Assembly: GCA_016194975.1 (NCBI GenBank)
Contig: JACQAM010000012.1
Span: 1-64,000 of the forward strand
DNA: 64,000 nucleotides
Direction of reading: 5' to 3'
Source of the DNA: Bacteroidota bacterium
GTDB taxonomy: Bacteria; Bacteroidota; Bacteroidia; Palsa-965
In this document: positions 2 through 63,431 of the stretch, piece after piece
How positions within the stretch are numbered: the first letter of the stretch is position 1
Layout: each line of letters opens with the position of its first letter
The notes under the pieces: model-generated
Seen by the model: the letters and a program-made list of their open reading frames with translations, nothing else
Told to the model about the DNA's origin: nothing
The model's database searches: none
Translations under genes and position numbers: made by a program

Positions 2-2090
2 AATAGTTTTTCATCGTCATCGCAAAATCCTTCAATCGCAGGAGCAACTGTTGCAGCGAGCGGAACTTATTCTGTGAATGTTACTGTTGCCGGATGTACA
101 AGTTCAAATGCAACAACAAGTGTTACTGTAAATCCGATTCCTGTTACACCTACTGCATCGAGCAATTCACCGATATGCGCAGGATCAACACTTAATCTTT
201 TTGCAAATACAATTGCAGGTGCGACTTATTCCTGGACAGGGCCAAATGGATTTTCATCATCATCGCAAAATCCTTCTATCGCCGGAGCAACTGTTGCAGC
301 GAGCGGAACTTATTCTGTGAATGTAACAGTGAGTGGATGTACCGGATCCGACGGAACAGTAGTTGTTACTGTCAATACAATTCCTGCTCCGCCTACTGTG
401 TCGAGTAACACTCCTGTTTGTACCGGAACACCGTTGAATCTTTTTGCAAGTACCATTGCGGGTGCAACTTATTCCTGGACTGGGCCGAATGGATTTTCTT
501 CTGCATTACAAAATCCGACCATTGCCAGTGCAACACTTCCTGCTGCCGGCACTTATTCGGTAACAGTTACAGTTGGTGGATGTGCAAGCAGTTCGCCTGC
601 GACAACAACAGTTGTTGTAAACGCAACACCAAATCCTCCGACGATCACAAGCAACTCACCTTTGTGTGTAGGTGCAACACTTAATATTAATTCAAGCTTT
701 GTTGCAGGCGCCACTTATTCCTGGACAGGGCCTGCAGGATTTTCTTCATCAACGCAAACAAACAGTATTCCGAATGTCACTTCTGCCAATGCAGGAATTT
801 ATTCGGTGAACGTAACAGTGAACGGATGCACAAGTGCAAATGCAACATTCAATGTTGTGATCCATCCGATCCCGAATCCGCCTACCGCATCGAGCAACAG
901 CCCTGTTTGTACAGGAAATACATTGAATCTTTTTTCAAGTTTTGTTGCAGGAGCAACCTACAACTGGACCGGGCCGAATAGTTATTCGGGCACCGGTCAG
1001 AATCGAAACATAACCAACATTACACTTGCCGGTGCAGGAACATATTCTGTGACGGTAACAGTTCTCGGTTGCACCAGCACTTCAGCTGGAACGACTACTG
1101 TAGTTGTGAATCCGACTCCGGCACCGCCAACTGTTTCGAGTAATTCTCCGATATGCGAAGGATCAACTTTGAATCTCACTGCTTCTAATGTTGCAGGAGG
1201 AACTTATTCCTGGACAGGGCCGAATGGATTTACATCAACTACACAAAACCCTTCTATACCTGCTGCTATACTTGCGGATACAGGAACTTATTCCGTAACA
1301 GTAACTGTAGGCGGATGCCCGAGTGTGGCTGCATCAGTGAATGTTATTATTAATCCGATTCCATCTGCACCATCTCCATCAAGTAATTCTCCGATATGTG
1401 CAGGATCAACTCTTAATCTTTTTGCAACCAATGTTGCAGGCGCAACTTATTCTTGGAACGGACCAAATGGATTTTCATCATCATCGCAAAATCCTTCGAT
1501 TGTTTCGGCAACAACTGCAGCAACGGGAACTTATACTGTGAATGTAACAGTGAATGGATGCACGAGTGTTGACAGTACAACTTTTGCTGCAGTCAGTGCA
1601 ACACCGACCACGCCAGTTGTGTCGAGCAACAGTCCTGTTTGTGCAGGAACAACTCTGCAATTGTTGGTGGATACAATTCCGGGAGCAACTTATTCCTGGA
1701 GTGGGCCGAATGGTTTCTCATCAACTTTGCAGGATCCGACGATTCCGAATATCACTGCTGCAGGAGCAGGAACTTATACTGTAACTGCAAACAACGGATG
1801 CGCGAGTGTTCCGGGAACAACAACTGTGGTGGTGAATGCAACTCCGAATCCACCGGTTGCTTCGAACAACGGACCGTTGTGTTCCGGATCGAATCTGAAT
1901 CTGAATTCTTCGAATGTTGCAGGAGCAACTTATTCCTGGAGCGGGCCAAATAGTTTCTCAGCATCAACGCAGAATACATCAATACCCGGAGCCACGTCCG
2001 CAGATGCGGGAACTTATTCTGTGACGGTAACGGTGAATGGATGTACGAGTAATGCAGCAACAACAAATGTTGTTATCAATACTCCCGCTG
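2..2090 (+). repeat. Coding tandem array of Ig-like repeats (about 246 bp period)
   Basis: Successive units carry near-identical DNA. For example, bases 1-100 match bases 245-345 closely, with the same codons in most positions. The period is about 243-249 bp. The repeats are in frame and encode the Ig-like domains, so this is a coding array and not a CRISPR or satellite. High identity at synonymous sites suggests recent duplication or gene conversion. Confidence 0.85.
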
Positions 2091-5000
2091 TTGTGAATGC
2101 CGGGCCTGATGTAACTGTTTGCGATAATAATCCGGCAGTTTTGTTGTCGGGAACTTCTTCGACAGGAAGCGGAATATGGTCAACTTCCGGGACAGGAATT
2201 TTTTCGCCTGGAAATACTGCACTCAACGGAACCTACAATCCAAGCAGCGCGGATACCACTGCAGGCAGTGTTACATTGACACTTACTTCAACTGCGAATG
2301 GAGCTTGTCCTTCTGCAAATGATCAACTTGTTATAACAATAACTGACGGGCCGGTTGCAAATGCAGGAGCGGATCAAACGGTGTGTGCAAATAATGCTGC
2401 AGTATCATTGGGTGGAAGCATTATTACAGCAACAGGCGGACAGTGGAGTTCGAGCGGCACAGGAACATTCACACCTTCTTCGACGACTCTTAATGCAACT
2501 TATAATCCTTCCGCAGCGGATACTGCTGCCGGAACCGTGACGTTGTATTTGAGCACAACCGGTAACGGACAATGTTTTGCAGCAATCGACTCAATGATCA
2601 TTACCATCACCAATGCGCCGCTGGTAAATGCGGGAAGTAATATTTTCGTTTGTGCAAATAATCCGAATGCAGCGTTGAGCGGAACATCTTCAACCGGAAG
2701 CGGAACATGGAACACGAACGGAACCGGAACATTCACACCGAATGCAACTACACTCAACGCAACTTATGTTCCTACCAATGCTGATACTGCTGCTGGAAGT
2801 GTACTTGTGTGGCTCACCAGTACGGGTAACGGAAATTGTCTTGCAGTCCAGGATACAATCACCATCACATACACACAACCGCCTACTGTTTATGCAGGAG
2901 AGGATCAAACGGTTTGTGCGAATAATGATTCTGTTTATCTCGCAGGAACTTCATCAACCGGAAGCGGAATATGGACAACTTCCGGAACAGGAACATTTGT
3001 ACCGAATGCAACTACCAACAACGCAACGTATGTTCCTTCTGCTGCCGATACTGCTTCCGGATTTGTGACATTGACATTTACAACTACAAATAACGGTGGA
3101 TGTCTTGCAGTCAGTGACCAGGTGGCGATAACAATTACTCCGGCGCCGATCGTGAATGCCGGACCTGATCAGAGTATCTGCGGTAACAATGCCGTTGCTG
3201 TACTGAATGGTTCGTTCTCCGTTTCTATGGGTGGTGTATGGTCTACAACCGGAAGCGGAACATTTACACCAGCGAACACCGATATGAATGCTTCGTATGT
3301 TGCAAGTAGTGCCGATACCACTCTGGGATTTGTAGATATTATACTTACAACAACCGGAAACGGAGTTTGCAATCCTGTATCTGATACGATGGTGCTCAGT
3401 ATTTCAAATGCACCGCATGCGATTGCAGGGCCGGATATTATTTCGTGTATCAACAGTCCGAATACACCGCTGAACGGTACAACTTCTACAGGAAGCGGAA
3501 CGTGGAGTACAGCGGGAACGGGAACATTCACACCGAACGCCAGTACGCTTAATGCAACTTATATTCCTTCCGCCGCAGATACCACAGCCGGATCAGTGAC
3601 GTTGTATTTAAGCACAACCAATAACGGAACTTGTAATCCTGTAACTGATACGCTCATCATAACATTCGCTCCAGTGCCAACAGTCACGACAAGTCCTGAT
3701 CAGACTGTTTGTGCGAATAATGATCTTGTTTCCGTAACTGGGAGTTCAAGTACAGGATCAGGATTCTGGACCACATCGGGAAGCGGAACATTTGCACCCA
3801 CAGCACTCGTTACCAATCCTGTTTACACACCATCAGCATCCGACACAACCAACGGAAGTGTATTGTTGACTTATCATGCATCGAACGCGTGCACACCTGT
3901 TACTTCCACGATCACCATCACGATCACACCTGCGCCTTACGTACTCGCTGGTGCGGATCAGAGTGTGTGCGCGAATAATGCCAATGTAATTCTGTCGGGA
4001 TATGTTGGCGGAGGAACGAATACGGGTGACTGGAGCACTTCCGGTTCAGGAACATTTTCTCCGTCGAGCTCAAGTCTCAACGCGACTTATTCACCGAGTG
4101 CAGCAGATACCATTGCAGGAAGTGTATTTCTCATTCTCACATCAACAGGAAACGGAATATGCAATGCCGTTAGCGATACTGTTGTTCTCACGATCACGCA
4201 TCAGCCCGACGCGAATGCGGGACCTGATATGAGTGCGTGCGCAAATAATGCAACAGCATTGAACGGAACAATAAGTGGTGGAAGCGGAACAGGAATATGG
4301 ACAACACCAAATGGAAACGGAACATTCTCGAATGCAACTTCACTCACTTCAACATACACACCTTCGAACAGCGATACGCTTGCAAGCCCGATTATGCTCA
4401 TTCTTACTTCAACAGGAAACGGAGGATGCACTGCCGATGCAGATACCATGTTCATCACAGTGACGCCGGGTCCGGTTGTCTTTGCTGGAGTTGATCAAAC
4501 TGTTTGCGCAAATAATCCGGATGTGAATCTCAACGGATCAGTAACCATCGCAAGCGGAGGAATCTGGAATACTACCGGCAACGGAGTATTTATTCCCGGA
4601 AATACAGTGATGAATCCGACTTATTTACCGGATACTTCTGATGTGAATAACGGAAGTGTTGTGGTGTATCTCACCTCAACAGGCAATGGTTTGTGTTCTC
4701 CTGTTGTTGACAGCATGACTATTTTCTTCTCTCCATCTCCATTGGTGAATGCGGGAGGAAATCAGAATATCTGTGCCGGAAATACTGCTGTTACGCTCAA
4801 TGGAACGATCAGCGGGGGAGCAACAACAGGAATCTGGACAACACTCGGCAGCGGAACATTCACGCCTAACGATTCAACATTGAATGCAACTTATAATTTA
4901 AGTGCAGCCGATACTTCTGCCGGAACAGTAACACTCATCCTCACTTCCACGAATAACGGAACATGTAATCCGGATGCAGATACGATGCAGATCATCATCA

Positions 5001-6307
5001 CACCGATCGCAACTGCATTCGCCGGAAATGATTCTACGATTTGTGCAAACACCGGTGGATATGTGCTCAACGGAAATGTCATTGGTAATTCCGGAACAGG
5101 ATACTGGACAACTTCAGGCAGCGGAACATTCACACCCGATAGTTCTGCACTGAATGCAACATACGTTCCATCGGGAACAGATACCAGTTCAGGTTCTGTA
5201 ACACTTGTACTCGTTGCAACCAACACGTGCATACCATCGTCCGATTCAATTGTGCTTTCTTTCATTCCTGCATCGATTGCGCAGGCAGGGCCTGATGTCG
5301 TGATCTGCGGAGGAGGAAACGTACTGCTGAATGGAAATATTTCCGGTGCTACAGGCGGACAATGGTCCACTTCCGGCGACGGAACTTTTTCACCATCCTC
5401 TTCTGTACTCAATCCTGTTTACACGCCAGGAACAAATGACACGGCTTCCGGAAATGTAACGTTGTATTTTAGTACAACCGGCAGCGGCATCTGCAGCGGC
5501 GTCACCGATTCCATGCAGATCACGATCGGTCATAAGCCGGATGCGCAGTTCAGCAGCGGAGTACTTTGTAATGGCGTTGCAGGATCGTTCACTGATCTTT
5601 CCACCGTGGTCAACGACAGCATCGTGAACTGGAGCTGGACATCGGGAACAGATACCTCTTCATCGCAGAATCCGAATTTCGTATATACTACGAATGGAAA
5701 TCAATCGGTGACACTCATTGTTATTTCATCAGCAGGATGTTCCGATACGATCACGAAAACTGTGAATGTGAATCCTTCTCCTGCCGCTGATTTCAGTTCT
5801 GCGCTTACTTGCCCGTTCAATGCAGCGTTCACTGATTCTTCTACCATTTCAAGCGGAACGATCATCACCTGGAACTGGAGTTTCGGAGATTCTACTTTCA
5901 GTTCGTTGCAGGATCCTACGCATACTTACAACGACACCACATGGTATCACGTCACACTTGTTGTAACTTCTGATTCAGGATGCGTTTCATCTTACAGCGA
6001 CAGCATACTGTTTGTTCCGTGCGAAGAGCATGTTACTCCGCCGGGAGTTCCGACTGCATTCACACCGAATGGCGACAACGTCAATGATATTCTGTTTGTG
6101 AAAGGCGGACCGTTCACGCAATTCGAGTTCCGGGTGTTCAACGAATGGGGCAACCAGGTATTCGAAAGCAATTCACAGACGAATGGTTGGAACGGAACTT
6201 ACCGTTCGAAACCACAACCTGCCGGAACTTATGTGTGGACACTTGTTGGAGTTACTGCTGATAATAAATATGTGAACATGTCCGGCGGAGTAAATCTTAT
6301 CCGGTAA
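2..6307 (+). CDS. Giant secreted repeat protein with T9SS type B C-terminal domain (5' end outside window)
   Basis: The frame is open from base 2, so the gene begins upstream and the GTG at 74 is not its true start. About 2100 residues are visible. First come one partial and eight full Ig-like repeats of about 82 residues, each with a GATYSW core and a SNSPxCxG opening. Next are thirteen repeats of about 88 residues opening with AGxDxTVCANN, then two PKD-like domains (WSW and WNWSFGD cores). The protein ends in a gliding-motility-associated type B sorting domain of about 85 residues (AFTPNGDNVND, FNEWGNQVF). Such proteins are exported by the type IX secretion system and shown on the cell surface, typically as adhesins. 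A PorP/SprF gene follows 12 bp downstream, as is common for type B substrates. The ligand is unknown. Confidence 0.93.
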   Translation, partial: NSFSSSSQNPSIAGATVAASGTYSVNVTVAGCTSSNATTSVTVNPIPVTPTASSNSPICAGSTLNLFANTIAGATYSWTGPNGFSSSSQNPSIAGATVAASGTYSVNVTVSGCTGSDGTVVVTVNTIPAPPTVSSNTPVCTGTPLNLFASTIAGATYSWTGPNGFSSALQNPTIASATLPAAGTYSVTVTVGGCASSSPATTTVVVNATPNPPTITSNSPLCVGATLNINSSFVAGATYSWTGPAGFSSSTQTNSIPNVTSANAGIYSVNVTVNGCTSANATFNVVIHPIPNPPTASSNSPVCTGNTLNLFSSFVAGATYNWTGPNSYSGTGQNRNITNITLAGAGTYSVTVTVLGCTSTSAGTTTVVVNPTPAPPTVSSNSPICEGSTLNLTASNVAGGTYSWTGPNGFTSTTQNPSIPAAILADTGTYSVTVTVGGCPSVAASVNVIINPIPSAPSPSSNSPICAGSTLNLFATNVAGATYSWNGPNGFSSSSQNPSIVSATTAATGTYTVNVTVNGCTSVDSTTFAAVSATPTTPVVSSNSPVCAGTTLQLLVDTIPGATYSWSGPNGFSSTLQDPTIPNITAAGAGTYTVTANNGCASVPGTTTVVVNATPNPPVASNNGPLCSGSNLNLNSSNVAGATYSWSGPNSFSASTQNTSIPGATSADAGTYSVTVTVNGCTSNAATTNVVINTPAVVNAGPDVTVCDNNPAVLLSGTSSTGSGIWSTSGTGIFSPGNTALNGTYNPSSADTTAGSVTLTLTSTANGACPSANDQLVITITDGPVANAGADQTVCANNAAVSLGGSIITATGGQWSSSGTGTFTPSSTTLNATYNPSAADTAAGTVTLYLSTTGNGQCFAAIDSMIITITNAPLVNAGSNIFVCANNPNAALSGTSSTGSGTWNTNGTGTFTPNATTLNATYVPTNADTAAGSVLVWLTSTGNGNCLAVQDTITITYTQPPTVYAGEDQTVCANNDSVYLAGTSSTGSGIWTTSGTGTFVPNATTNNATYVPSAADTASGFVTLTFTTTNNGGCLAVSDQVAITITPAPIVNAGPDQSICGNNAVAVLNGSFSVSMGGVWSTTGSGTFTPANTDMNASYVASSADTTLGFVDIILTTTGNGVCNPVSDTMVLSISNAPHAIAGPDIISCINSPNTPLNGTTSTGSGTWSTAGTGTFTPNASTLNATYIPSAADTTAGSVTLYLSTTNNGTCNPVTDTLIITFAPVPTVTTSPDQTVCANNDLVSVTGSSSTGSGFWTTSGSGTFAPTALVTNPVYTPSASDTTNGSVLLTYHASNACTPVTSTITITITPAPYVLAGADQSVCANNANVILSGYVGGGTNTGDWSTSGSGTFSPSSSSLNATYSPSAADTIAGSVFLILTSTGNGICNAVSDTVVLTITHQPDANAGPDMSACANNATALNGTISGGSGTGIWTTPNGNGTFSNATSLTSTYTPSNSDTLASPIMLILTSTGNGGCTADADTMFITVTPGPVVFAGVDQTVCANNPDVNLNGSVTIASGGIWNTTGNGVFIPGNTVMNPTYLPDTSDVNNGSVVVYLTSTGNGLCSPVVDSMTIFFSPSPLVNAGGNQNICAGNTAVTLNGTISGGATTGIWTTLGSGTFTPNDSTLNATYNLSAADTSAGTVTLILTSTNNGTCNPDADTMQIIITPIATAFAGNDSTICANTGGYVLNGNVIGNSGTGYWTTSGSGTFTPDSSALNATYVPSGTDTSSGSVTLVLVATNTCIPSSDSIVLSFIPASIAQAGPDVVICGGGNVLLNGNISGATGGQWSTSGDGTFSPSSSVLNPVYTPGTNDTASGNVTLYFSTTGSGICSGVTDSMQITIGHKPDAQFSSGVLCNGVAGSFTDLSTVVNDSIVNWSWTSGTDTSSSQNPNFVYTTNGNQSVTLIVISSAGCSDTITKTVNVNPSPAADFSSALTCPFNAAFTDSSTISSGTIITWNWSFGDSTFSSLQDPTHTYNDTTWYHVTLVVTSDSGCVSSYSDSILFVPCEEHVTPPGVPTAFTPNGDNVNDILFVKGGPFTQFEFRVFNEWGNQVFESNSQTNGWNGTYRSKPQPAGTYVWTLVGVTADNKYVNMSGGVNLIR
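2095..5535 (+). repeat. Coding tandem array of AGxDxTVCANN repeats (about 264 bp period)
   Basis: Thirteen in-frame units of about 88 residues each open with a Cys-containing AGxDxTVCANN-like motif and contain GTGTFTP and NATYxPSxADT segments. The DNA is more diverged between units than in the preceding Ig-like array, which suggests this block is older or less homogenised. Confidence 0.85.
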
Positions 6308-6319
6308 AAAACTGTAGCC

Positions 6320-7315
6320 ATGAAAAAAATAATTTCCCTTTTTTCCACGCTTGCAGCCTTCACAGTGATCGCTGCGCAGGATTTTCATTTCTCGCAGTAC
6401 GATATCACGAACCTGATCATGAGTCCGGCATCAACAGGAATGTATGACGGGCAGAAAGGGGACTATCGCGTGACTTCCGATTTTCGTTCGCAGTGGAAAG
6501 CGCTCGGGATAAAACCGTACACGACCGCGTATATTTCTTACGATATGCTTTTGCATAAGTGGAATAATAAATTCGGAGTAGGCGGGTACCTTGTGGAAGA
6601 TCATTCGGGTGTGGGAAAATTTCAAACGCTGAATGCAATGGCATCGGGTTCGTACAACATTATGGATGGAACGAATGAACATTATCTCACTGTAGGATTG
6701 CAGACCGGAATTTTCTACAAAAGTTTCGATCAGAATTCCTATACGTATGATGTGCAATGGGACAATTCAACCGGAACATTCGATCAGAATATTTACAATC
6801 AGGAAAATTTTGCAAGAACATCGATGGTGAAATTCGATGCGGATCTCGGTGTGCGTTACCGGTACATGCCATTGCATAAAAAATATCATCCGTTCGCTTC
6901 ATTCTCTTTATATCACCTCACCGTTCCCAATGAATCGTTCACCGAAGTGAAAAGCAGGGTGCCGTTGCGTGCAAATTATATTGCAGGATGTGATTATGAC
7001 ATCAATGAAAATTTTTCGATACAACCGCGCATACTTTATATGAATCAGCGAAAAGCGCATGAACTGAATTTCGGTGTGCTTGCGTTTTACAAAATAAAAG
7101 GATCGTCGCTTGATGCACTTGCAGGAGTGGATTACCGTGTAAAAGATGCGGTGGTGTTTCATCTCGGTTTCCGCCAGGGGCAATCCATTTTCCGTTTCAG
7201 TTATGATCTGAACACCTCTTACCTGAGCAATTACAGCGGTGGAAGAGGAGCTTGGGAATTTTCTTTGCTGCTCATGGGCACAAAAGGAAAACCTATTCTT
7301 CTTCCGATGTTCTGA
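6320..7315 (+). CDS. PorP/SprF family type IX secretion outer-membrane protein
   Basis: This 331-residue protein has a signal peptide ending near AAQDFHFSQYD. The family hallmark QDFHFSQYDxxxLxMSPASTG stretch follows, then alternating beta-strand sequence typical of a PorP/SprF barrel. In known T9SS biology, SprF is needed for secretion of the type B substrate SprB, and PorP anchors the PorK/N ring and the surface machinery. It starts 12 bp after the giant substrate gene and is surely co-transcribed, which suggests a dedicated partner for that adhesin. A second family member lies at 57019-57960. Calling it sprF specifically would be inference. Confidence 0.92.
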   Translation: MKKIISLFSTLAAFTVIAAQDFHFSQYDITNLIMSPASTGMYDGQKGDYRVTSDFRSQWKALGIKPYTTAYISYDMLLHKWNNKFGVGGYLVEDHSGVGKFQTLNAMASGSYNIMDGTNEHYLTVGLQTGIFYKSFDQNSYTYDVQWDNSTGTFDQNIYNQENFARTSMVKFDADLGVRYRYMPLHKKYHPFASFSLYHLTVPNESFTEVKSRVPLRANYIAGCDYDINENFSIQPRILYMNQRKAHELNFGVLAFYKIKGSSLDALAGVDYRVKDAVVFHLGFRQGQSIFRFSYDLNTSYLSNYSGGRGAWEFSLLLMGTKGKPILLPMF

Positions 7316-7461: not shown

Positions 7462-8376
7462 TTACCAACGGTAACGTTTCGCTTTTCCTCCGTTGAACAA
7501 TTGCATGGCGGGCGCAAGATTGATCCCGATGTACGCCTCTGCGCGGGAGTAGGTGGGCGTGTACCAAGCGATTCCCCAATGAAAAATGCCGTAACCGGAG
7601 TTGAAGAATATTCCGACTGCATTTGACTTGATGGCAAAGATGTCGTTGAATTCGCTGATCGGCCTGAACATCCATTCTATACTTACGGGACCAACGATGT
7701 CTGCCAGCAATCGTAAATAGGGTTTGCGTGGTGCGAGTCCGACGTTGAAGCTTATTCCCGGCCCGATGGTGTAATTCGTGTAATCGATGTGGCCAAGATG
7801 AATAACCGGAATTGCGGGTGAGATAGAATGGATCTTCATTGTTTCGCGATTCGATTTATTCGGTAGGTTGATCGTGAGCAGGTCGGGCTGGAAACGCAAA
7901 TACATGCACCATGTTTCTGTAGAATTTTTTATCCGGATGGCGATACGATAAATTTCCCATTCACGTTTCCTGATTTTTTTCACGCGATCCAGAAAATTGG
8001 TTGCAGTTGAAGAATCACTCACAAGTGCTACATAAGGAACACTGTCTGTCGATTCACGATTCTCGAAAGTGTAAATAAAATTCCCGGGAAGAGAAAGACG
8101 CATTTCCACCGAATCATTTTCTCCTGCAATAGTGAACGGATCCGACGTGAGCAAAGTAAAATGCCCTGTAGAACCGGGATCATTACGGTTAACGTATTTT
8201 TTGCTGATGAGATCAGTTTCCGGAATGAAACTTCCTTCCCGGTGTACAGCAAGAATTCCGTCGCGTGCAATGATGAAACGGAAGGGCGAATTTGTTCCGG
8301 CAAAAGAGAATTCACTAAAGAAAAAAATAAAAATGAACAGCAGGAAGAACGGCCGGCGTGTTTTAAGTTTCATCAT
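7462..8376 (-). CDS. Secreted protein of unknown function
   Basis: This 304-residue protein has a clear N-terminal signal peptide (RRPFFLLFIFIFFF, cleavage near SFAG). The rest alternates short hydrophobic and polar strands; the C-terminal third, with GPGISFNVGLAPRKPY and GYGIFHWGIAWY, looks like the strands of an outer-membrane barrel or periplasmic beta protein. I do not recognise a family. Two ATG codons are adjacent at the start (8376 and 8373). It is convergent with the upstream PorP/SprF gene and is transcribed alone. Confidence 0.75.
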   Translation of the reverse strand: MMKLKTRRPFFLLFIFIFFFSEFSFAGTNSPFRFIIARDGILAVHREGSFIPETDLISKKYVNRNDPGSTGHFTLLTSDPFTIAGENDSVEMRLSLPGNFIYTFENRESTDSVPYVALVSDSSTATNFLDRVKKIRKREWEIYRIAIRIKNSTETWCMYLRFQPDLLTINLPNKSNRETMKIHSISPAIPVIHLGHIDYTNYTIGPGISFNVGLAPRKPYLRLLADIVGPVSIEWMFRPISEFNDIFAIKSNAVGIFFNSGYGIFHWGIAWYTPTYSRAEAYIGINLAPAMQLFNGGKAKRYRW

Positions 8377-55103: not shown

Positions 55104-57008
55104 TTACTGAAAAATTTTCGTCACCTTGAATTCAGTTCTACGATTCCACTGGTATTCTTCCTCCGTGCATTTCACTCCATTCACACAACGATTGAGCGGA
55201 ACAGTTTCTCCATAACCTTTCGCTGTAATGCGATCGCGGCTTATTCCCCTGGAAACAATATAATCTACAGCCGACTGCGCACGTTTCTGTGAAAGGGTCA
55301 TGTTATATTTATCGCTTCCCCGGCTGTCGGTGTGCGAACTCAATTCAATTTTTATTTGTGGATTATCCTGCAGAATCTTCACGAGTTTATCGAGTTCCAC
55401 TGCCGCATCAGGACGAATGTTCCACTTATTGTAGTCGTAATAAATATTTTCAAGCCGGATCGGTTTATTGATCACGATTTTTTCTGCAAGAAGTGTGATG
55501 TAAGATGTGTCGCTGAATGTTCCTTTGAATCCTCCCGTTGTCAATCCGCCGAAGCAAGTGAAATATTCTGTTCTGTGAATGCAGAAGCTATAACCGGTAG
55601 TTGAATCGGCAGGAAAGAAAATGGTGCCATCATTATCCGTAACAAGATTGAAAGTTTTTCCGGTCGTACTGTTTTTTACTTCGATGGTTGTTGCGGTAAG
55701 TGCATCGCCGGAAGATTTGTCTCTCACATTTGTTTTCACAAAAAACTGCGGTGTGCGTCGCACAAAACTATAGATCCTGTCCGATCCATCGGCATTTTCG
55801 CGATTGCTGGAAAAATATCCGCTCGTTCCGTTTTCATTAAACACAATCCCGAAATCGTCAGCGGAAGAATTGAACGGTGCGGAAAGCCGTTCCGGTTTTA
55901 CAGGAAGACTGTTTTCCATTGCGCAGCGGAAAATATCGAGTCCGCCGGCACCGGTCATTCCATCAGAAGAAAAATAAAATTCATCTTTCCCATTCGTGAT
56001 ATTATGAATGGTCGGAAACATTTCGTTGCCATTGGTGTTAATGGAATTTCCTGCATTCACCGGTTTGCTCCATTGACCGTTCACGAAGTTGGAATAATAA
56101 ATATCGGTACCACCCATTCCGCCGGGCATATCAGAAATAAAAAACATTCTTTTTCCGTCGGAAGTCAATGAAGGATGGCCACAGGAATATTCAGTACTGT
56201 TGAAAGGAAGTGAACTCACATCGGTCCAGTTATCATTTGTTCCATGCGCCTGGCAGATCTCGAGATGATTATCGTTGTTCTTCGCCTGGCCGGGTTTATT
56301 GTTCACCATTCTGCTGCGTGTAAAATACATCATGTCGCCCGAAGGAGAAATGATGGCGGTGCCTTCGTGCAGGTTGCTGTTGACAGTACCGGAGAGTGGA
56401 GAAGGAATTTTATCGATGGTGTTCGCTTCAAAAATATCGAGGTAACCGTTTCCAGTCCAGTTATCGGTTTTCATTCCGGGTTGCAACGGAGCTTCTGCAG
56501 TAAAATAAATTTTCCCGTTGGCGATGAACGGGCTAAAGCAGGCAATATCTGATGTGGAAGAAAAAACTACAGGCTCCACAATATAAAATGGATTGGCTGT
56601 AGAAAATTGCCCGGGATTTTTGCAGGAGGCAAGTTTGTTTTTTGCGGCTACATCATACGGCGATGATTGAAGATAATCTTCCAGCAACGCGATCGCATCA
56701 TTGTATTTTCCTTCTTCCTGCAGCACTTCGGCATAATGAAGTTTATCGGCAGGAGAAGCGGCGGATGATTGGATGGCTCTCGAATACCATGTATCAGCTT
56801 CGGTTTCCTTATTCATTTTGCGATAACAATCTGCAAGATGAAGCATAGCCATATCATTGGTTTCCGATTTCAGAATATTTTCATACAGTTTTGCGGCAGA
56901 TGCATATTCATAATTACCGTATTCTTTTTCTGCTTCTTTCATCATTTTATTTCCGCACGATGAAAAAAATAAAAGCAGCGTTACAATAGAGATAGAATAT
57001 TTTTTCAT
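55104..57008 (-). CDS. PorE-like TPR/PD40/OmpA lipoprotein
   Basis: This protein of about 634 residues starts with a lipobox signal (LLLFFSSCG). TPR-type repeats follow (NYEYASAAKLYENIL, DAIALLEDYLQSSPYD), then a PD40 propeller (MMYFTRSRM, MFFISDMPGGMGGTDIY, FYFSSDGMTGAGGLDIF). A CarboxypepD-like domain and an OmpA C-terminal domain (SHTDSRGSDKYNMTLSQKRAQSAVDYI) end it. This order matches PorE of the T9SS, which ties outer-membrane parts to peptidoglycan. The start at 57008 is chosen at the signal peptide; the long upstream frame overlaps porP/sprF. It follows that gene by 10 bp. Confidence 0.88.
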   Translation of the reverse strand: MKKYSISIVTLLLFFSSCGNKMMKEAEKEYGNYEYASAAKLYENILKSETNDMAMLHLADCYRKMNKETEADTWYSRAIQSSAASPADKLHYAEVLQEEGKYNDAIALLEDYLQSSPYDVAAKNKLASCKNPGQFSTANPFYIVEPVVFSSTSDIACFSPFIANGKIYFTAEAPLQPGMKTDNWTGNGYLDIFEANTIDKIPSPLSGTVNSNLHEGTAIISPSGDMMYFTRSRMVNNKPGQAKNNDNHLEICQAHGTNDNWTDVSSLPFNSTEYSCGHPSLTSDGKRMFFISDMPGGMGGTDIYYSNFVNGQWSKPVNAGNSINTNGNEMFPTIHNITNGKDEFYFSSDGMTGAGGLDIFRCAMENSLPVKPERLSAPFNSSADDFGIVFNENGTSGYFSSNRENADGSDRIYSFVRRTPQFFVKTNVRDKSSGDALTATTIEVKNSTTGKTFNLVTDNDGTIFFPADSTTGYSFCIHRTEYFTCFGGLTTGGFKGTFSDTSYITLLAEKIVINKPIRLENIYYDYNKWNIRPDAAVELDKLVKILQDNPQIKIELSSHTDSRGSDKYNMTLSQKRAQSAVDYIVSRGISRDRITAKGYGETVPLNRCVNGVKCTEEEYQWNRRTEFKVTKIFQ

Positions 57009-57018
57009 AAAATTATTT

Positions 57019-57960
57019 TTAGAAGAAACGTGGTGAGTGATAGCGTACTGCCTGATCTTTGATAAAATCCCATGCAAGCATGATTTCGTGCGAACCGGAA
57101 TTGTAATTCCTGAGATGCGTGAGCGACATGTCATAAGCGTAACCGATGCGGAGATTTTTTGTCGCCTGGTATTCCGTCATAGCGATCACTCCATCTCCGC
57201 TTCGATATGTTCCGCCGATCCAAAGAGTTTTGTAGAAGAAAAAATTCAGGCTGTAATCAAATTCAACAGGCGCCAGCGGAGTATATTTTACAAGCACAGA
57301 TGGTTTAATATCGAGGTTTTTTCCTGCGGGAATTGCATAACCTGCCGTTGCAAAATAATGGCGTTCCAGCATCGGGATATTTTCAGAAGCAAGATTGAGA
57401 GCCGTTCCGGGTTTGTAACTGATGACATTGGGAATCGAAATTCCTGCATACATTCTTTTCGTGTAAAAATAAATTCCTGCACCGGCAATCGGCAAAATTT
57501 TTCCGTTGATGTTGCTGGTGAATACAGGATCGGCCTGGTCCCAGATCGTGAGATCTGTAAGTTTTGCACGATAATAAGTTTCGCCCGCACGTATGCCCGC
57601 CGCGATCGTTGCTTTCTCACCGAGTTTCAGGTGATACGAAAGTGACGCAGAAATTTCACTTCTGTCAGTAACACCGATGTGATCATTCAGAATGATTCCG
57701 CCAATGCCGATATTTTTTCCGTGCACCGGCATATCGAAACTCAGGTAAGACGTGTAGGGCGATCCATCGAATCCCACCCACTGCTTTCTTCCGAGCGCAG
57801 TGATGTTGGCGTAATCATGACTCCCGGCATAAGCGGGATTAAGGAAGTGTCCGCTGAACATGTGCTGACTCACCATGGGATCCTGCTGTGCGGAAATTTT
57901 CATTGGCAGGGCGAGAAGTATCATCGCCGCAAATGCCTGTATGAGATTTTTCATTTTCAT
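57019..57960 (-). CDS. PorP/SprF family outer-membrane protein (second copy)
   Basis: This 313-residue protein has a signal peptide (AAMILLALPMKISAQ) and the family start QQDPMVSQHMFSGHFLNPAYAGS. Beta-strand repeats of a barrel follow. It is a second PorP/SprF family member and lies between the SprB-type giant (20-bp gap) and the PorE-like gene (10-bp gap). The order suggests a type B substrate, its specific PorP/SprF partner and an anchoring lipoprotein in one operon. Confidence 0.93.
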   Translation of the reverse strand: MKMKNLIQAFAAMILLALPMKISAQQDPMVSQHMFSGHFLNPAYAGSHDYANITALGRKQWVGFDGSPYTSYLSFDMPVHGKNIGIGGIILNDHIGVTDRSEISASLSYHLKLGEKATIAAGIRAGETYYRAKLTDLTIWDQADPVFTSNINGKILPIAGAGIYFYTKRMYAGISIPNVISYKPGTALNLASENIPMLERHYFATAGYAIPAGKNLDIKPSVLVKYTPLAPVEFDYSLNFFFYKTLWIGGTYRSGDGVIAMTEYQATKNLRIGYAYDMSLTHLRNYNSGSHEIMLAWDFIKDQAVRYHSPRFF

Positions 57961-57980
57961 TTTATTTTCAGATTGAACTT

Positions 57981-60900
57981 TTATCTGCGTATGTCGATGT
58001 AACCGTTGAGCACTTTCTGTCCGTCAGAAATGTTGAGGATCACGAAATAAGTACCGTCAGGAAGTTTGTCGCCGGAAGAAGTGGTGCCTTCCCATGTGTT
58101 CATGTAATCATCCGCCTGCCACACTTTATTTCCCCAGCGATTGAAGACTTCAATTTTATTCTGAGGAAAAGCTTCGAGTCCGTGTACCACGAAGAAATCA
58201 TTGTTTCCGTCTCCGTTCGGTGAGAAACCGGTTGGCATCTGCAACACGAATGGTTCGCTGAGCAGAATTGATGTTGTAGTGCTGCATCCGTTCGCGTCTG
58301 TGATGATGACGAAATAATTTCCGGCAGGAATGTTTGATTGATCTTCAGTAGAAGCGCCGTTGCTCCATGCATAAGTGTATGGAGTAACACCACCGTTCAC
58401 AGTGATCTGAATGGATCCGTCACTTCCACCGGAGTAAGTGACGTTGAATCCGTCAGTCTGCACCGGGCTTGAAACGCTGCTGCTCATTGGAGAATTGTCG
58501 GTGAGTAGAATGGTATCGCCAGATGAACAATTGTTCGCGTCAATTACATTCACTGTATACGATCCGGAAGCGAGCGCTGAAATATCCTGCGTGCTTTGTC
58601 CGTTCGACCAGGTGTAAGTGTAAGGTGCAAGTCCGCCGTTAACACTCAGATCAATTGATCCGTTGTTATCGCCGAAGCAGAGTGGGTTGAGACTTGTGTT
58701 CGAGAGAATCATAGGTGACAATTGCGAGATGACAAATGAATTGGTGAGTACACATCCGTTCGCATCGGTTACGCTTACAGAATAAGATCCTGAAGTGATC
58801 GCGGAAATATCTTCTGTTGTCGCGCTGTTTGACCAGGAATAAGTGTAAGGATTTACTCCGCCACTCATGGTAATATCAATTGATCCGGTATTGAATCCGT
58901 TGCATAAGACATTTTGTTGTGTGGAAGTAAGCCCGAGCGCAACAGGTTGAGTGAGTGTGACGGCTAATGTACTTGTGCATCCATTCGCATCAGTGACATT
59001 TACAGAATATGTTCCCGCGCTCAGATTATTCACATCTTCGGTAACAGCGCTGTTGCTCCACACGTAGGTGTACGTGGGTGTTCCGCCTGCGCTCGTGATG
59101 TCAATTGTTCCATCTGAATTTCCTGCGCAACCGATATTGTAACCGTTGTAATTACTCAGTGCAGTAATCGAAGTAGTGAGTAGTGTTGGTTCTGTCAATG
59201 TGAATGAAAGATTATCACTGCAGCCGTTCGCATCAGTGACCGTCACCGAATAATTTCCGGATGAAAGATTGCTTACATCTTCAGTTGTTGATGCATTGCT
59301 CCAGTAGTAAGTGTATCCGCTCGTTCCGCCACTTGTTGTTACATCAATAGCGCCTGTGGAATTCTGAAAACAAGTGAGATCTGTTGTAACTCCGGATGTG
59401 ATCAGATCTGTTGGCTGAGTGATCGTGATGCTCGACGTAAGCTGACATCCATTCGCATCTGTGAACGTTACAGAATATGAACCTGAAGAAAGTGAACCGA
59501 GATCTTCTGTTGTATTTCCATTCGACCAATTGAAAGTGTAAGGTGATACGCCACCGCCAGGAGTAAGATCTGCTGCGCCAGTCGCATTTCCAAAACACAA
59601 CACATTCGTTGGTTGAATATCAGCGATCATTGCAGATGGTTCTGTAAGTGTTACAGAAGATGTAGTAGTACATCCATTCGCGTCGGTGATCGTGACAGAA
59701 TATATTCCTGCGGCAAGTGAAGAAATATCTTCTGTTGTAGAACCGTTACTCCAGTTGTAAGTGTAAGTTGTTACACCACCATTCACTGTTAAATCCACTG
59801 ATCCGTTTGAAGAACCATTGCAGCTTACATTATTTCCGTTGAATCCGGAGAAAGCAACAGTAGAAGAAGTGAGTACAGTTGGCTGTGCGAGTGTGAAGTT
59901 GAGCGTGTCCGTGCATGCGAGCGCATCCGTGATGACAACACTGTAAGTTCCTGCAGCGATGTTGCTGAGATCTTCTGTTGTCGCTCCGTTAGACCATGAA
60001 TAAGTGTAAGCGCCACTTCCTCCGATTGCACTCAGATCAATTGATCCGTCTGTACTTCCATTGCAGGAAACCTGGAATCCGCCTGCGAATGAAGAAGTAA
60101 CTCCTGAAGGAATGATCTCATTCGGAATGCTGATCGGTTCCGTTACAGAAACGCATCCGCTCGAATCTTTTACGATAATGTTGTAACTGTTTCCTGTTGC
60201 AAGATTTGTTGTGAAAATATTTGCGCCGAGATACGTCACTCCATTATCGAATGAAAAATAAAGCGGGCCGCCATTTCCACCGGTTGCAGTTAGTGTTACC
60301 GGAATAGATGTTACACCGTCAGCGATGCATGGATTGAAAGAAACAGTTTGAATATCTACAGCAGGTGGAATGACAAGTGTAGTTGCTGCCGGAGTTGTGC
60401 ATCCGTTGTTATCATGAACGACTACCTGGTAAGATTGTCCTACAGCGAGCATCGTATTGTAAATTCCGCTTCCGAGAAATGTAATACCATTATCAAATGA
60501 AACCTGGTAAGTAAGATTAGATCCGCCGGAAGGATAAACTGTCACCGAAGAAAGTCCACTGCCGGGAGCAGGACAAACTTTAATTATAGAATCAATATTC
60601 ACATCAGCAGGTTCGTTGATCGCGACATCAAATGGATTGATGAGTCCGCATCCGTTTGCATCCGTAATAGTGAGTGTGTAATTTCCGAATGTGAGTCCGC
60701 TGATATCCTGCGTTGTTGCGCCAGTACTCCAGTTGTACACATAAGGTGTAACACCTCCGCTCATGCTTACGTCGATCGCTCCGTCATTTCCTCCATGACA
60801 AGTTACTTGTGTATTGGAAGAAGTTGCAAGGAGTATAGCAGGTTCGGTGATGATGGTAGTTGCTGTTGTTGTGCAACCATGCGAATCGGTAATGAGTACG

Positions 60901-63431
60901 CTGTATGTTCCGGTTGAAAGATTTGCCTGGTCTTCTACACCAAGTCCATTCGACCAGGAATAAGTATAAGGGAAAGTTCCTCCTGAAACAGTTTGTTCAA
61001 TCGTTCCATTGAGCGAACCATTGCAACTGATGTTTGTAGGAGAGAGAACACTGCTCAGAGCAGATGGCTGAGTGATGGTGAAGTTGACAAAGTTCGTGCA
61101 GTTGTGCGCATCAGTAATTGATAAACTGTAATTACCCGCGCTCAGTCCATTAACTGTTGAAGTTGTTGCACCATTGCTCCACAAATAAGAGATCGGGTTG
61201 TTAGCGAATAAAACGATCGCGGTTGCTGTACCATTATTTCCACCATTGCAGGAAACCGCAGTCGCCGCAACGGCAACAGTAAGATTATTACAAGGAGGTT
61301 GAGTGATCTGAACGCTATCGATCAATGTGCAATTGTTCGCGTCATGCACGAGCACGGAATATGTTCCCGCAACAAGCGTGTTGATGGAAGAAGTAGTTGC
61401 AGCATTACTCCATGTGTAAGTGTAAACCGGAGTTCCACCTGAAATATTCGCTGCAGCGCTTCCATCATTACCACCAATCGCTGTAACGTTTGTGTGCGTC
61501 ATAGTATTTATGAGTTGTGTTGGTTGCGTGATGGTAACGTTCACCACTTTGGAACAATTGTTCGCGTCGGTAACGAGACACTGATATGCTCCAGCTGTGA
61601 GTCCGGTTGCAACTTGTGTTGTTTGAAATAAAGGATCACTCCACAGATATGTGTAGGATGGTGTTCCGGCAATAACAGTTGCAGTTGCTGTGCCTGATGC
61701 ATTTCCATTGCAGAGAATATTTGTACTTGACGCAACAACGTTGTACGCGTTGCATCGTGGTTCATTCACGACAATGCTCGAAGCGATCTGGCATCCGTTC
61801 GCATCTGTTGCTGTTACAACATATACTCCATAGATAAGACCGGAAATGGTAGAAGTAGTTCCGCCATTCGACCAGAGGTAAGTATATGGAGCACTTCCAC
61901 CACTAACATTGGCAGTAGCAGTTCCATCGTTGCCACCATTTGTTGAACATGGAGTACTCGAAGTAATAATGGAAAGCGAAGAAGGTTGTGTGATCGTTCC
62001 GCAATCGGTGCTGATGCATCCGAGATTATCCATTACAGAAAGACAATATGTTCCAGCAGCTGCGGAAATATTCGCAGTCACCGCACCTGTGCTCCATGAA
62101 TAAGCATAAGGTGTTGTTCCACCTGTAACAGTTGAAGTGAGCGCTCCAGTACTACTACTGCAACCTACATTCACGTCGGGAACAGTCACAACAAGTGGTG
62201 AAGGAAAATGTAATGTCACCTGATCTGTTGCTGCGGAACATCCGCCACCCGCACCAGTTGAAGTGAGTGTGAGTGTAACTGCTCCCGAAGCGATCTCCGC
62301 TGCAGTTGGAGTATATCCGACAGTGAGTGAAGTATTGTTTGGAACAAATGTTCCTGCACCACCGGTCCAGATTCCACCTGTTGCATTCGTTACTGTTCCG
62401 CTAAGAACTGCAGAAGGAGTTGTTGGACACAAGGTCTGATCCGCACCTGCATTCACAGTCGGAGGAGGAACTGCTGTAACAGGAACACTGATGTGTAAAG
62501 CAGGACAGTGAAGTGAATCATAAAGAATATCTCTTATTTCAAGACTGTATGTTCCTCCAAGTGTCGCGTTGTATGTTGTAGAAGTTCCAACTGTAATGAG
62601 TGAAGTATTTCTCCATGTGTAAGAGTATGGAGATTGTCCGCCGGAAACTGATCCGGTAAGAAGCACGCCCGGTCCATTGGTACAGAAGGTAGCCGAACTC
62701 GGAGTTACACTTCCTGCGAGAGTGCTCATATTATAGATGCGCACAACTCCGCACGTCGCTACATATCCGCAAAGTGTCGCGATCGGTGTTCCGCATATTC
62801 TGTAATCAATGAATGCCGGTGCACCAACTGCAGGAGTGTACAACACCGTATCACATTGACTGATGCAACTGAGATAACTATTGTATTGTCCTGGCGCGCC
62901 CGGAAAAATGGATTGCCATGTGATCGAACTTTCTACAAGTCCGAGTACATGTATTGGCAGATTGCAACCGATGCGCGTTGTATCATTATGCGGGAACAGT
63001 GGTTTTGGAATCGATTTGATGTAATATGTATTTGTATTGTTTCCCGGTTTACAAAAAGTAATGTGATGCGGACCAACTCCTGTTATACAAACAGGCGAAC
63101 CAACTGCAACCGGTGGACCGCAATTGATCTGGTAATACATGGATCCGGAAGGAATGGCTTGTGATGGATCGTGAATAATATCGAATCCCATTTCAACCAT
63201 CGCGGCACCGGTGTCGAGCGTTACATCGAATGAAGTGCAATTGTCTCCTCCTGTTGCGGTGCAGCAATGTCCGTTCCGGGAATGAGTTGGAGATGTCCAC
63301 CATCCGTTCGGCTGACCCGTCAGGTCAACGTTGAAGAATGGAACCGAAGGATCGCAGGATGCATTCTGTGCTTTGAGATCAAATTCGCTTACTACTAGAA
63401 GCAGGAGAGAAAGAAATAAAAATTTTCGCAT
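57981..63431 (-). CDS. Giant SprB-repeat surface protein with T9SS type B C-terminal domain
   Basis: This protein of about 1816 residues has a signal peptide (LFLSLLLLVVSEFDLKAQ). A Cys-rich N-terminal domain of about 240 residues follows (13 Cys). The body contains about fifteen SprB-type repeats of roughly 75 residues (CNGxxxGxI, GGxxPYTYxWSNG, DISxLxxGTYSVxVTDANGC) plus two variant units. It ends with a type B sorting domain (GFSPNGDGNNDFF, FNRWGNKVW, YFVILNISD). SprB is the mobile cell-surface adhesin of gliding in relatives, but homology at this level does not prove motility. The ATG at 63431 directly precedes the signal peptide. Confidence 0.93.
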   Translation of the reverse strand: MRKFLFLSLLLLVVSEFDLKAQNASCDPSVPFFNVDLTGQPNGWWTSPTHSRNGHCCTATGGDNCTSFDVTLDTGAAMVEMGFDIIHDPSQAIPSGSMYYQINCGPPVAVGSPVCITGVGPHHITFCKPGNNTNTYYIKSIPKPLFPHNDTTRIGCNLPIHVLGLVESSITWQSIFPGAPGQYNSYLSCISQCDTVLYTPAVGAPAFIDYRICGTPIATLCGYVATCGVVRIYNMSTLAGSVTPSSATFCTNGPGVLLTGSVSGGQSPYSYTWRNTSLITVGTSTTYNATLGGTYSLEIRDILYDSLHCPALHISVPVTAVPPPTVNAGADQTLCPTTPSAVLSGTVTNATGGIWTGGAGTFVPNNTSLTVGYTPTAAEIASGAVTLTLTSTGAGGGCSAATDQVTLHFPSPLVVTVPDVNVGCSSSTGALTSTVTGGTTPYAYSWSTGAVTANISAAAGTYCLSVMDNLGCISTDCGTITQPSSLSIITSSTPCSTNGGNDGTATANVSGGSAPYTYLWSNGGTTSTISGLIYGVYVVTATDANGCQIASSIVVNEPRCNAYNVVASSTNILCNGNASGTATATVIAGTPSYTYLWSDPLFQTTQVATGLTAGAYQCLVTDANNCSKVVNVTITQPTQLINTMTHTNVTAIGGNDGSAAANISGGTPVYTYTWSNAATTSSINTLVAGTYSVLVHDANNCTLIDSVQITQPPCNNLTVAVAATAVSCNGGNNGTATAIVLFANNPISYLWSNGATTSTVNGLSAGNYSLSITDAHNCTNFVNFTITQPSALSSVLSPTNISCNGSLNGTIEQTVSGGTFPYTYSWSNGLGVEDQANLSTGTYSVLITDSHGCTTTATTIITEPAILLATSSNTQVTCHGGNDGAIDVSMSGGVTPYVYNWSTGATTQDISGLTFGNYTLTITDANGCGLINPFDVAINEPADVNIDSIIKVCPAPGSGLSSVTVYPSGGSNLTYQVSFDNGITFLGSGIYNTMLAVGQSYQVVVHDNNGCTTPAATTLVIPPAVDIQTVSFNPCIADGVTSIPVTLTATGGNGGPLYFSFDNGVTYLGANIFTTNLATGNSYNIIVKDSSGCVSVTEPISIPNEIIPSGVTSSFAGGFQVSCNGSTDGSIDLSAIGGSGAYTYSWSNGATTEDLSNIAAGTYSVVITDALACTDTLNFTLAQPTVLTSSTVAFSGFNGNNVSCNGSSNGSVDLTVNGGVTTYTYNWSNGSTTEDISSLAAGIYSVTITDANGCTTTSSVTLTEPSAMIADIQPTNVLCFGNATGAADLTPGGGVSPYTFNWSNGNTTEDLGSLSSGSYSVTFTDANGCQLTSSITITQPTDLITSGVTTDLTCFQNSTGAIDVTTSGGTSGYTYYWSNASTTEDVSNLSSGNYSVTVTDANGCSDNLSFTLTEPTLLTTSITALSNYNGYNIGCAGNSDGTIDITSAGGTPTYTYVWSNSAVTEDVNNLSAGTYSVNVTDANGCTSTLAVTLTQPVALGLTSTQQNVLCNGFNTGSIDITMSGGVNPYTYSWSNSATTEDISAITSGSYSVSVTDANGCVLTNSFVISQLSPMILSNTSLNPLCFGDNNGSIDLSVNGGLAPYTYTWSNGQSTQDISALASGSYTVNVIDANNCSSGDTILLTDNSPMSSSVSSPVQTDGFNVTYSGGSDGSIQITVNGGVTPYTYAWSNGASTEDQSNIPAGNYFVIITDANGCSTTTSILLSEPFVLQMPTGFSPNGDGNNDFFVVHGLEAFPQNKIEVFNRWGNKVWQADDYMNTWEGTTSSGDKLPDGTYFVILNISDGQKVLNGYIDIRR
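58240..62250 (-). repeat. Coding SprB-type repeat array
   Basis: About fifteen in-frame units of roughly 220-250 bp encode the SprB-like repeats. They are spaced regularly but vary in sequence, and two units near 60200-60500 have a different core (DNGITFLG). This is a coding array, not a CRISPR. Confidence 0.83.

Follow-up and report, generated by a model that had tools for sequence, protein, structure and literature searches.

Gliding Bacteroidota place both moving and fixed adhesins on their surface by means of one secretion system, and the question of how each kind is sorted is raised here by three adjoining genes, encoding a giant type B substrate of the T9SS, a PorP/SprF-family shuttle and a PorE-like lipoprotein. 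They lie in the window, that is, the whole stretch of 64,000 nucleotides that was analysed, which is C12:1-64000 of a genome (G000) of 4.10 Mb and 99.8% completeness. The sequence-only reading took the three genes for a complete surface-adhesin module, and the open reading frames are found where it placed them, on the minus strand and with the short gaps that it gave (Table 1). They are co-directional, with no gene between them, as in the PorE-linked type B operons of F. johnsoniae, and are probably read as a single transcript. A scan for promoters and terminators gave no more sites than were found in shuffles. A second pair of giant and PorP that the same reading used for comparison (2-7315) is also present, and does lack a PorE-like gene; the adjoining gene at 7462-8376 is on the opposite strand.

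Table 1. Features of the window, and related loci (L) in the genomes (G) used for comparison.
Feature	Position	Strand	Size	Remarks
Trio (putative operon)	55104-63431	minus		order: substrate, PorP/SprF, PorE-like
Giant T9SS substrate of type B; probably a surface adhesin	57981..63431	minus	1816 aa	
Gap between substrate and shuttle genes	57961..57980	minus	20 nt	
PorP/SprF-family shuttle	57019..57960	minus	313 aa	
Gap between shuttle and PorE-like genes	57009..57018	minus	10 nt	
PorE-like lipoprotein	55104..57008	minus	634 aa	
Second type B substrate (comparison pair, outside the module)	2..6307	plus		PKD/Ig domains and CHU_C; cut by contig start
Second PorP/SprF (comparison pair)	6320..7315	plus		tail LLPMF (no cysteine); PorE-like gene absent
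PorP-TSP3-OmpA fusion	L190:4033-5754			one chain
PorP-TSP3-OmpA fusion	L191:4043-5845			one chain
PorP-TSP3-OmpA fusion	L201:3183-5129			one chain; G091
PorP-TSP3-OmpA fusion	L335:1525-3480			one chain; G033
PorP-SPOR fusion	L302:2476-3858			G041; behind a type B gene
SPOR-ended PorE-like protein of the C7 trio	L084:5828-7936			also in G001, G003, G006, G007

Published accounts of the arrangement as such exist from F. johnsoniae and P. gingivalis (PMC12618676, PMC9143113), and the window holds a further example of it. In F. johnsoniae each type B substrate comes out of the SprA translocon together with a PorP/SprF-like shuttle, to which it remains bound (PMC12618676, PMC9143113). One account describes five operons of a type B substrate, an SprF-like shuttle and a PorE homologue, including Fjoh_3952-Fjoh_3951-Fjoh_3950 (PMC12618676). 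These resemble the window trio in gene content, in order and in having a dedicated shuttle, although the genome and the body of the adhesin differ, and the likeness is to the published description rather than to the sequences. The CTD tested from a PorE-linked operon, not reported to be mobile, formed static foci only (PMC12618676). The CTDs of SprB and Fjoh_4750 are mobile, and that of Fjoh_1123 partly so; the mobile substrates lack a PorE-like gene. SprB-SprF itself shares with the window the SprB repeats, the type B sorting domain and a PorP-family shuttle encoded directly downstream. However, SprF has no PorE-like neighbour, and it carries a C-X-C tail that is disulfide-bonded to GldK of the gliding track and is needed for sustained movement (PMC12635249), whereas the window shuttle has a PorE-like neighbour and no cysteine. 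In P. gingivalis a complex of the same three kinds of protein, PorE-PorP-PG1035, has been isolated (PMC9143113), with PorE as the bridge from PorP to peptidoglycan. P. gingivalis has a single PorP and a single type B substrate, and its PorE is required for general T9SS function, whereas the PorE-like protein of the window is one of several paralogues.

The giant has a signal peptide, an N-terminal part of about 400 aa without a Pfam match, a series of SprB repeats (15 above threshold, spaced by about 75 aa; PF13573, 6e-139) and finally a type B sorting domain (CHU_C/TIGR04131), which forms residues 1731-1814 of the 1816. Both models of the sorting domain score above their cut-offs (TIGR04131, 55.4 bits against 35; CHU_C, 93.8 against 27), and the protein is thus a type B T9SS substrate with SprB repeats, as had been proposed. 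The giant shares its repeats with SprB, yet such repeats are widespread in this genome: there are at least 150 matches to them, spread over many open reading frames, and together with 21 PorP genes these make up a large type B surface repertoire.

The middle gene had been read as a PorP/SprF barrel, and both family models agree (TIGR03519, 258.7 bits against a cut-off of 90.6; PF11751, 6e-75). AlphaFold predicts 14 β-strands followed by a loose tail of residues 300-313 (pLDDT 73, from four sequences). The best fold matches among outer-membrane barrels are to the F chain of the T9SS structures 8gl6 and 6h3i. The tail after the last strand ends in SPRFF, and there is no cysteine anywhere in the protein, so that the C-X-C of the track-bound SprF is missing from its periplasmic tail.

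In the third protein, the sequence itself shows an FSSC that resembles a lipobox. Profile searches find TPR, PD40 and OmpA matches in the order known from PorE, so that the domain assignment of the sequence-only reading withstands an HMM search. The AlphaFold model (pLDDT 80) fills in the remainder, with TPR helices at 35-135, a β-propeller at 142-417, a β-sandwich at 421-508 in the place of the CRD-like domain, and an OmpA_C domain at 517-632. Its best match in the PDB, and the closest solved structure, is 6TOP, the complex of the P. gingivalis PorE OmpA_C domain with peptidoglycan. In 6TOP the peptidoglycan fragment is held by the side chains of D576, N584 and R591 (PMC7192894). These correspond to D561, N569 and R576 of the window protein, with identical spacing, and the three residues are invariant among its relatives where complete genes were compared.

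The domain order of PorE is therefore present, as the sequence-only reading claimed, but an identity with PorE is not. Against the PorE model NF052230 the protein scores 424 bits, below the curated cut-off of 600. Its best NCBIfam match is to the CHU_0125 family of OmpA-like proteins (NF053607), at 468 bits over the full length but below the cut-off of 620. The highest PorE scores in the genome (531 and 493 bits) belong to two tandem copies on contig C24, neither of which adjoins a PorP. On a tree of 100 PorE-like proteins this pair falls within a clade of 22 rows without PorP neighbours (SH-aLRT 99), and the window protein in a separate group of 51 rows (support 85), of which nearly all are PorP-linked; of the two members scored as unlinked, at least one (L104) has an adjoining PorP that is cut by the contig end. 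The possibility that it is the core PorE of this genome was rejected both by the curated cut-off and by the tree. By its domain order and predicted peptidoglycan site, the protein is PorE-like but of a paralogue lineage rather than the core PorE. Tandem PorE-like genes, like those on C24 (G000:C24:26722-31028), also occur in relatives (L108, L130).

The linkage of the three genes is conserved. In G000 a PorE-like gene lies directly downstream of four of the 21 PorP genes (on C12, C20, C7 and C3). With about 25 PorE-like genes among some 3,500 genes, the gene number being assumed, about 0.08 same-strand adjacencies would be expected by chance (P about 1e-6). The survey was then of 214 PorPs from 22 Bacteroidota genomes, comprising nearly all PorPs of 12 relatives within the class and genomes of a phylum sample that have clear PorPs. 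A PorE-like gene is directly downstream in 59 of the 214, and in 54 of these 59 a type B substrate gene is also found upstream. The window's own trio recurs in two genomes of the same genus, G001 (61% identity over the PorE-like protein, with the PorP cut by the contig end) and G003 (54%), and at loci L160, L161 (Crocinitomicaceae) and L162. By the PorE-like protein, the relatives are metagenome bins of Flavobacteriales/Bacteroidia and one Crocinitomicaceae bin. The C20, C3 and C7 trios are likewise kept in five genomes of the window's family. The genes flanking the trio are not conserved in most relatives.

Two further arrangements were noted among the loci. Ahead of the C20 trio (L082:4978-9842), a short SprB/CHU_C protein of 249 aa is preceded by a protein of 1361 aa that combines collagen repeats with an endosialidase-chaperone domain (Peptidase_S74). 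At L177 and L186 (G079 and G075), a low-scoring PorP-like domain lies inside frames of 1527 and 970 aa with long repetitive C-termini, which start one base behind the type B gene.

The sequence-only reading suggested comparing the phylogenies of PorP/SprF and the PorE-like protein with that of the substrate. For the 36 trios with the common PRFF-type tail, pairwise distances are correlated between PorP and PorE (r = 0.75), PorP and CTD (0.57) and PorE and CTD (0.53). The PorE or CTD partners were then permuted among trios of the same genome, and none of 5000 shuffles reached the observed value for any of the three pairs. Since a shuffle within the genome preserves species relatedness, the signal is one of specific pairing.

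A link from PorP to the cell wall is suggested by natural fusions. Four PorPs (L190, L191 and L201 in G091; L335 in G033) are single-chain fusions with TSP3 repeats and an OmpA domain, and one (L302 in G041) is a fusion with a SPOR domain; each of the five lies behind a type B gene. SPOR domains bind the glycan strands of peptidoglycan. In five genomes the PorE-like protein of the C7-type trio also ends in SPOR instead of OmpA, and the PorP of this trio groups with the PorP-SPOR fusion on the PorP tree. From these sequences it appears that the wall-binding part can be exchanged, being OmpA or SPOR, and either a protein of its own or part of the PorP chain. It is difficult to account for fusions and swaps of this kind unless the third component serves to tie the shuttle to the wall. 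Together with the peptidoglycan-binding residues and the match to 6TOP, they uphold the link between PorP and the wall. No report of an interchangeable wall-binding part was found in the searchable literature, from which subscription journals are mostly absent.

We therefore consider, with a probability of roughly 0.75, that the trio is one operon for a statically wall-anchored adhesin with its own PorP shuttle and PorE-like tether. The giant would enter the periplasm by its signal peptide and leave it by SprA, the general translocon of the T9SS, whose gene lies elsewhere, the type B CTD being the giant's address. The adjoining PorP/SprF would be a dedicated shuttle that takes the CTD from the translocon and stays bound to it as an outer-membrane anchor. 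The PorE-like lipoprotein would bind PorP on its periplasmic side, and the OmpA domain of the lipoprotein would bind diaminopimelate in the peptidoglycan. The three proteins would form one complex, and the adhesin would presumably be static, fixed to the wall and not carried along a gliding track. A wall-fixed adhesin is the simplest reading because the CTD of such a trio is static elsewhere, because SprF moves by means of its C-X-C, and because the window shuttle has no cysteine. In direct support there are the gene order, the domains, the peptidoglycan-binding residues, a linkage that is both conserved and partner-specific, and the absence of track-linking tail cysteines. On this evidence the trio is a real, conserved module, and static anchoring is the best reading of it. 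The PorE-like protein may be dispensable for the anchoring, given that in P. gingivalis the complex of PorP and substrate forms without PorE (PMC9143113). The idea of an export and anchoring unit is thus borne out as regards domains, linkage, co-evolution and the link to the wall, but the unit is not self-contained, because export must use a core T9SS encoded elsewhere (SprA and GldJ on C8; PorK/L/M/N, with two PorPs, on C26), and its PorE-like protein is from a paralogue clade apart from the core PorE.

An adhesin with SprB repeats could still serve motility, since the genome has GldJ and may glide. The trio would then be a gliding system like SprB-SprF, with the giant propelled on the GldJ/GldK track and the PorE-like protein having some other role, for example in the T9SS machine. 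The repeats and type B domain of the giant fit this, as does the presence in the genome of GldJ, which scores above its cut-off, and of GldK, L, M, N and SprA. However, the shuttle lacks the tail that SprF requires for sustained movement, the mobile substrates of F. johnsoniae are without a PorE-like gene, and SprB repeats occur in many other frames of the genome, so that we regard it as unlikely. Rather less likely again is that a general PorE, anchoring the PorKN ring for all substrates, lies beside the adhesin pair by chance. The shared order of four domains and the 424-bit match agree with this, as does the co-purification of small amounts of PorK and PorN with PorE-PorP from P. gingivalis (PMC9143113). 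Against it, the score is below the PorE cut-off, the best PorE matches are on C24, in their own clade and away from PorP, and the genome has four different PorP-linked PorE-like copies. A further reading, that the genes lie together through descent alone and share no function, is very improbable. The lack of conserved flanking genes around the trio in most relatives has been counted in its favour, but it would have to accommodate four trios in one genome where about 0.08 are expected, a linkage maintained across families, partner-specific co-evolution, and PorPs fused to wall-binding domains.

If the adhesin is anchored to the wall in this way, the shuttle might carry a mark of its destination. 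PorE-linked PorPs of the main lineage terminate in (S/T)PR(F/Y)F, and their last 20 residues are free of cysteine. A PorE-like gene is linked to 37 of the 41 PorPs with this tail, compared to 22 of the 173 others, and a 38th tail-bearing PorP (L275) is followed by a PD40-PKD-OmpA gene that the PorE-like profile missed. For the 12 genomes that were added once the motif had been noticed, the counts are 22/25 and 14/110, although some of these loci had been glimpsed before and the count is not blind. Fisher values for both comparisons count relatives more than once. On the PorP tree the tail-bearing proteins essentially make up a single clade (43 rows, support 90), so that one event may underlie all these counts, and an analysis of phylogenetically independent pairs yielded only 2 supported pairs, too few for power.

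Tail cysteines give a less uniform picture. In the f49 genomes G079 and G075 they are found in 0/11 PorE-linked but 7/9 unlinked PorPs (Fisher p 0.0005), and in a nested pair there (L175, L183) the PorE neighbour has been lost, while the tail has become C-X-C. Outside these two genomes, 13 PorE-linked PorPs have a tail cysteine. They include the C3 trio of the window's family, which in five genomes combines a PorE-like gene with the tail NCPRL. Most unlinked PorPs of that family, which have no PorE-like partner, also lack a tail cysteine. A strict switch, in which a tail cysteine means track and PorE means wall, was considered; it fits G079 and G075 but fails on the 13 cysteine-bearing linked PorPs and on the PorPs with neither. 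The lack of a cysteine does not by itself make a PorP wall-bound, because many PorPs of this genome also lack the PorE-like partner.

It is a tentative suggestion, and one that we consider rather less than even, that the (S/T)PR(F/Y)F tail is a destination tag at which the PorE-like wall anchor docks, replacing the cysteine tail by which other PorPs are hooked to the moving GldK track, with the wall-binding part swapped freely in evolution. Because the tail is mostly from one clade, its function as a wall tag is unproven, and it is put forward as a candidate. If true, the tail would predict from sequence whether an adhesin is fixed to the wall. In the literature that could be searched, which mostly lacks subscription journals, no report of this tail in wall-linked PorPs was found. 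The shared tail and the interchangeable wall-binding part thus appear to be what is new here. The wall-linked shuttles are seen as a class-wide lineage: they have a C-tail in common, their partners change in step with one another, and two unrelated wall-binding domains occur naturally fused to them. The survey puts the question of adhesin sorting in an answerable form.

It is worth adding two observations on PorPs of this genome. The PorP of the second pair in the window, which has no PorE-like neighbour and whose tail lacks a cysteine, represents a third state outside the model of wall and track. On contig C8 (L085:5430-8020), the GldJ gene lies directly behind a PorP whose tail ends in CKPKKKKFRTVSCPSF, and both the pair and the tail are also found in several relatives.
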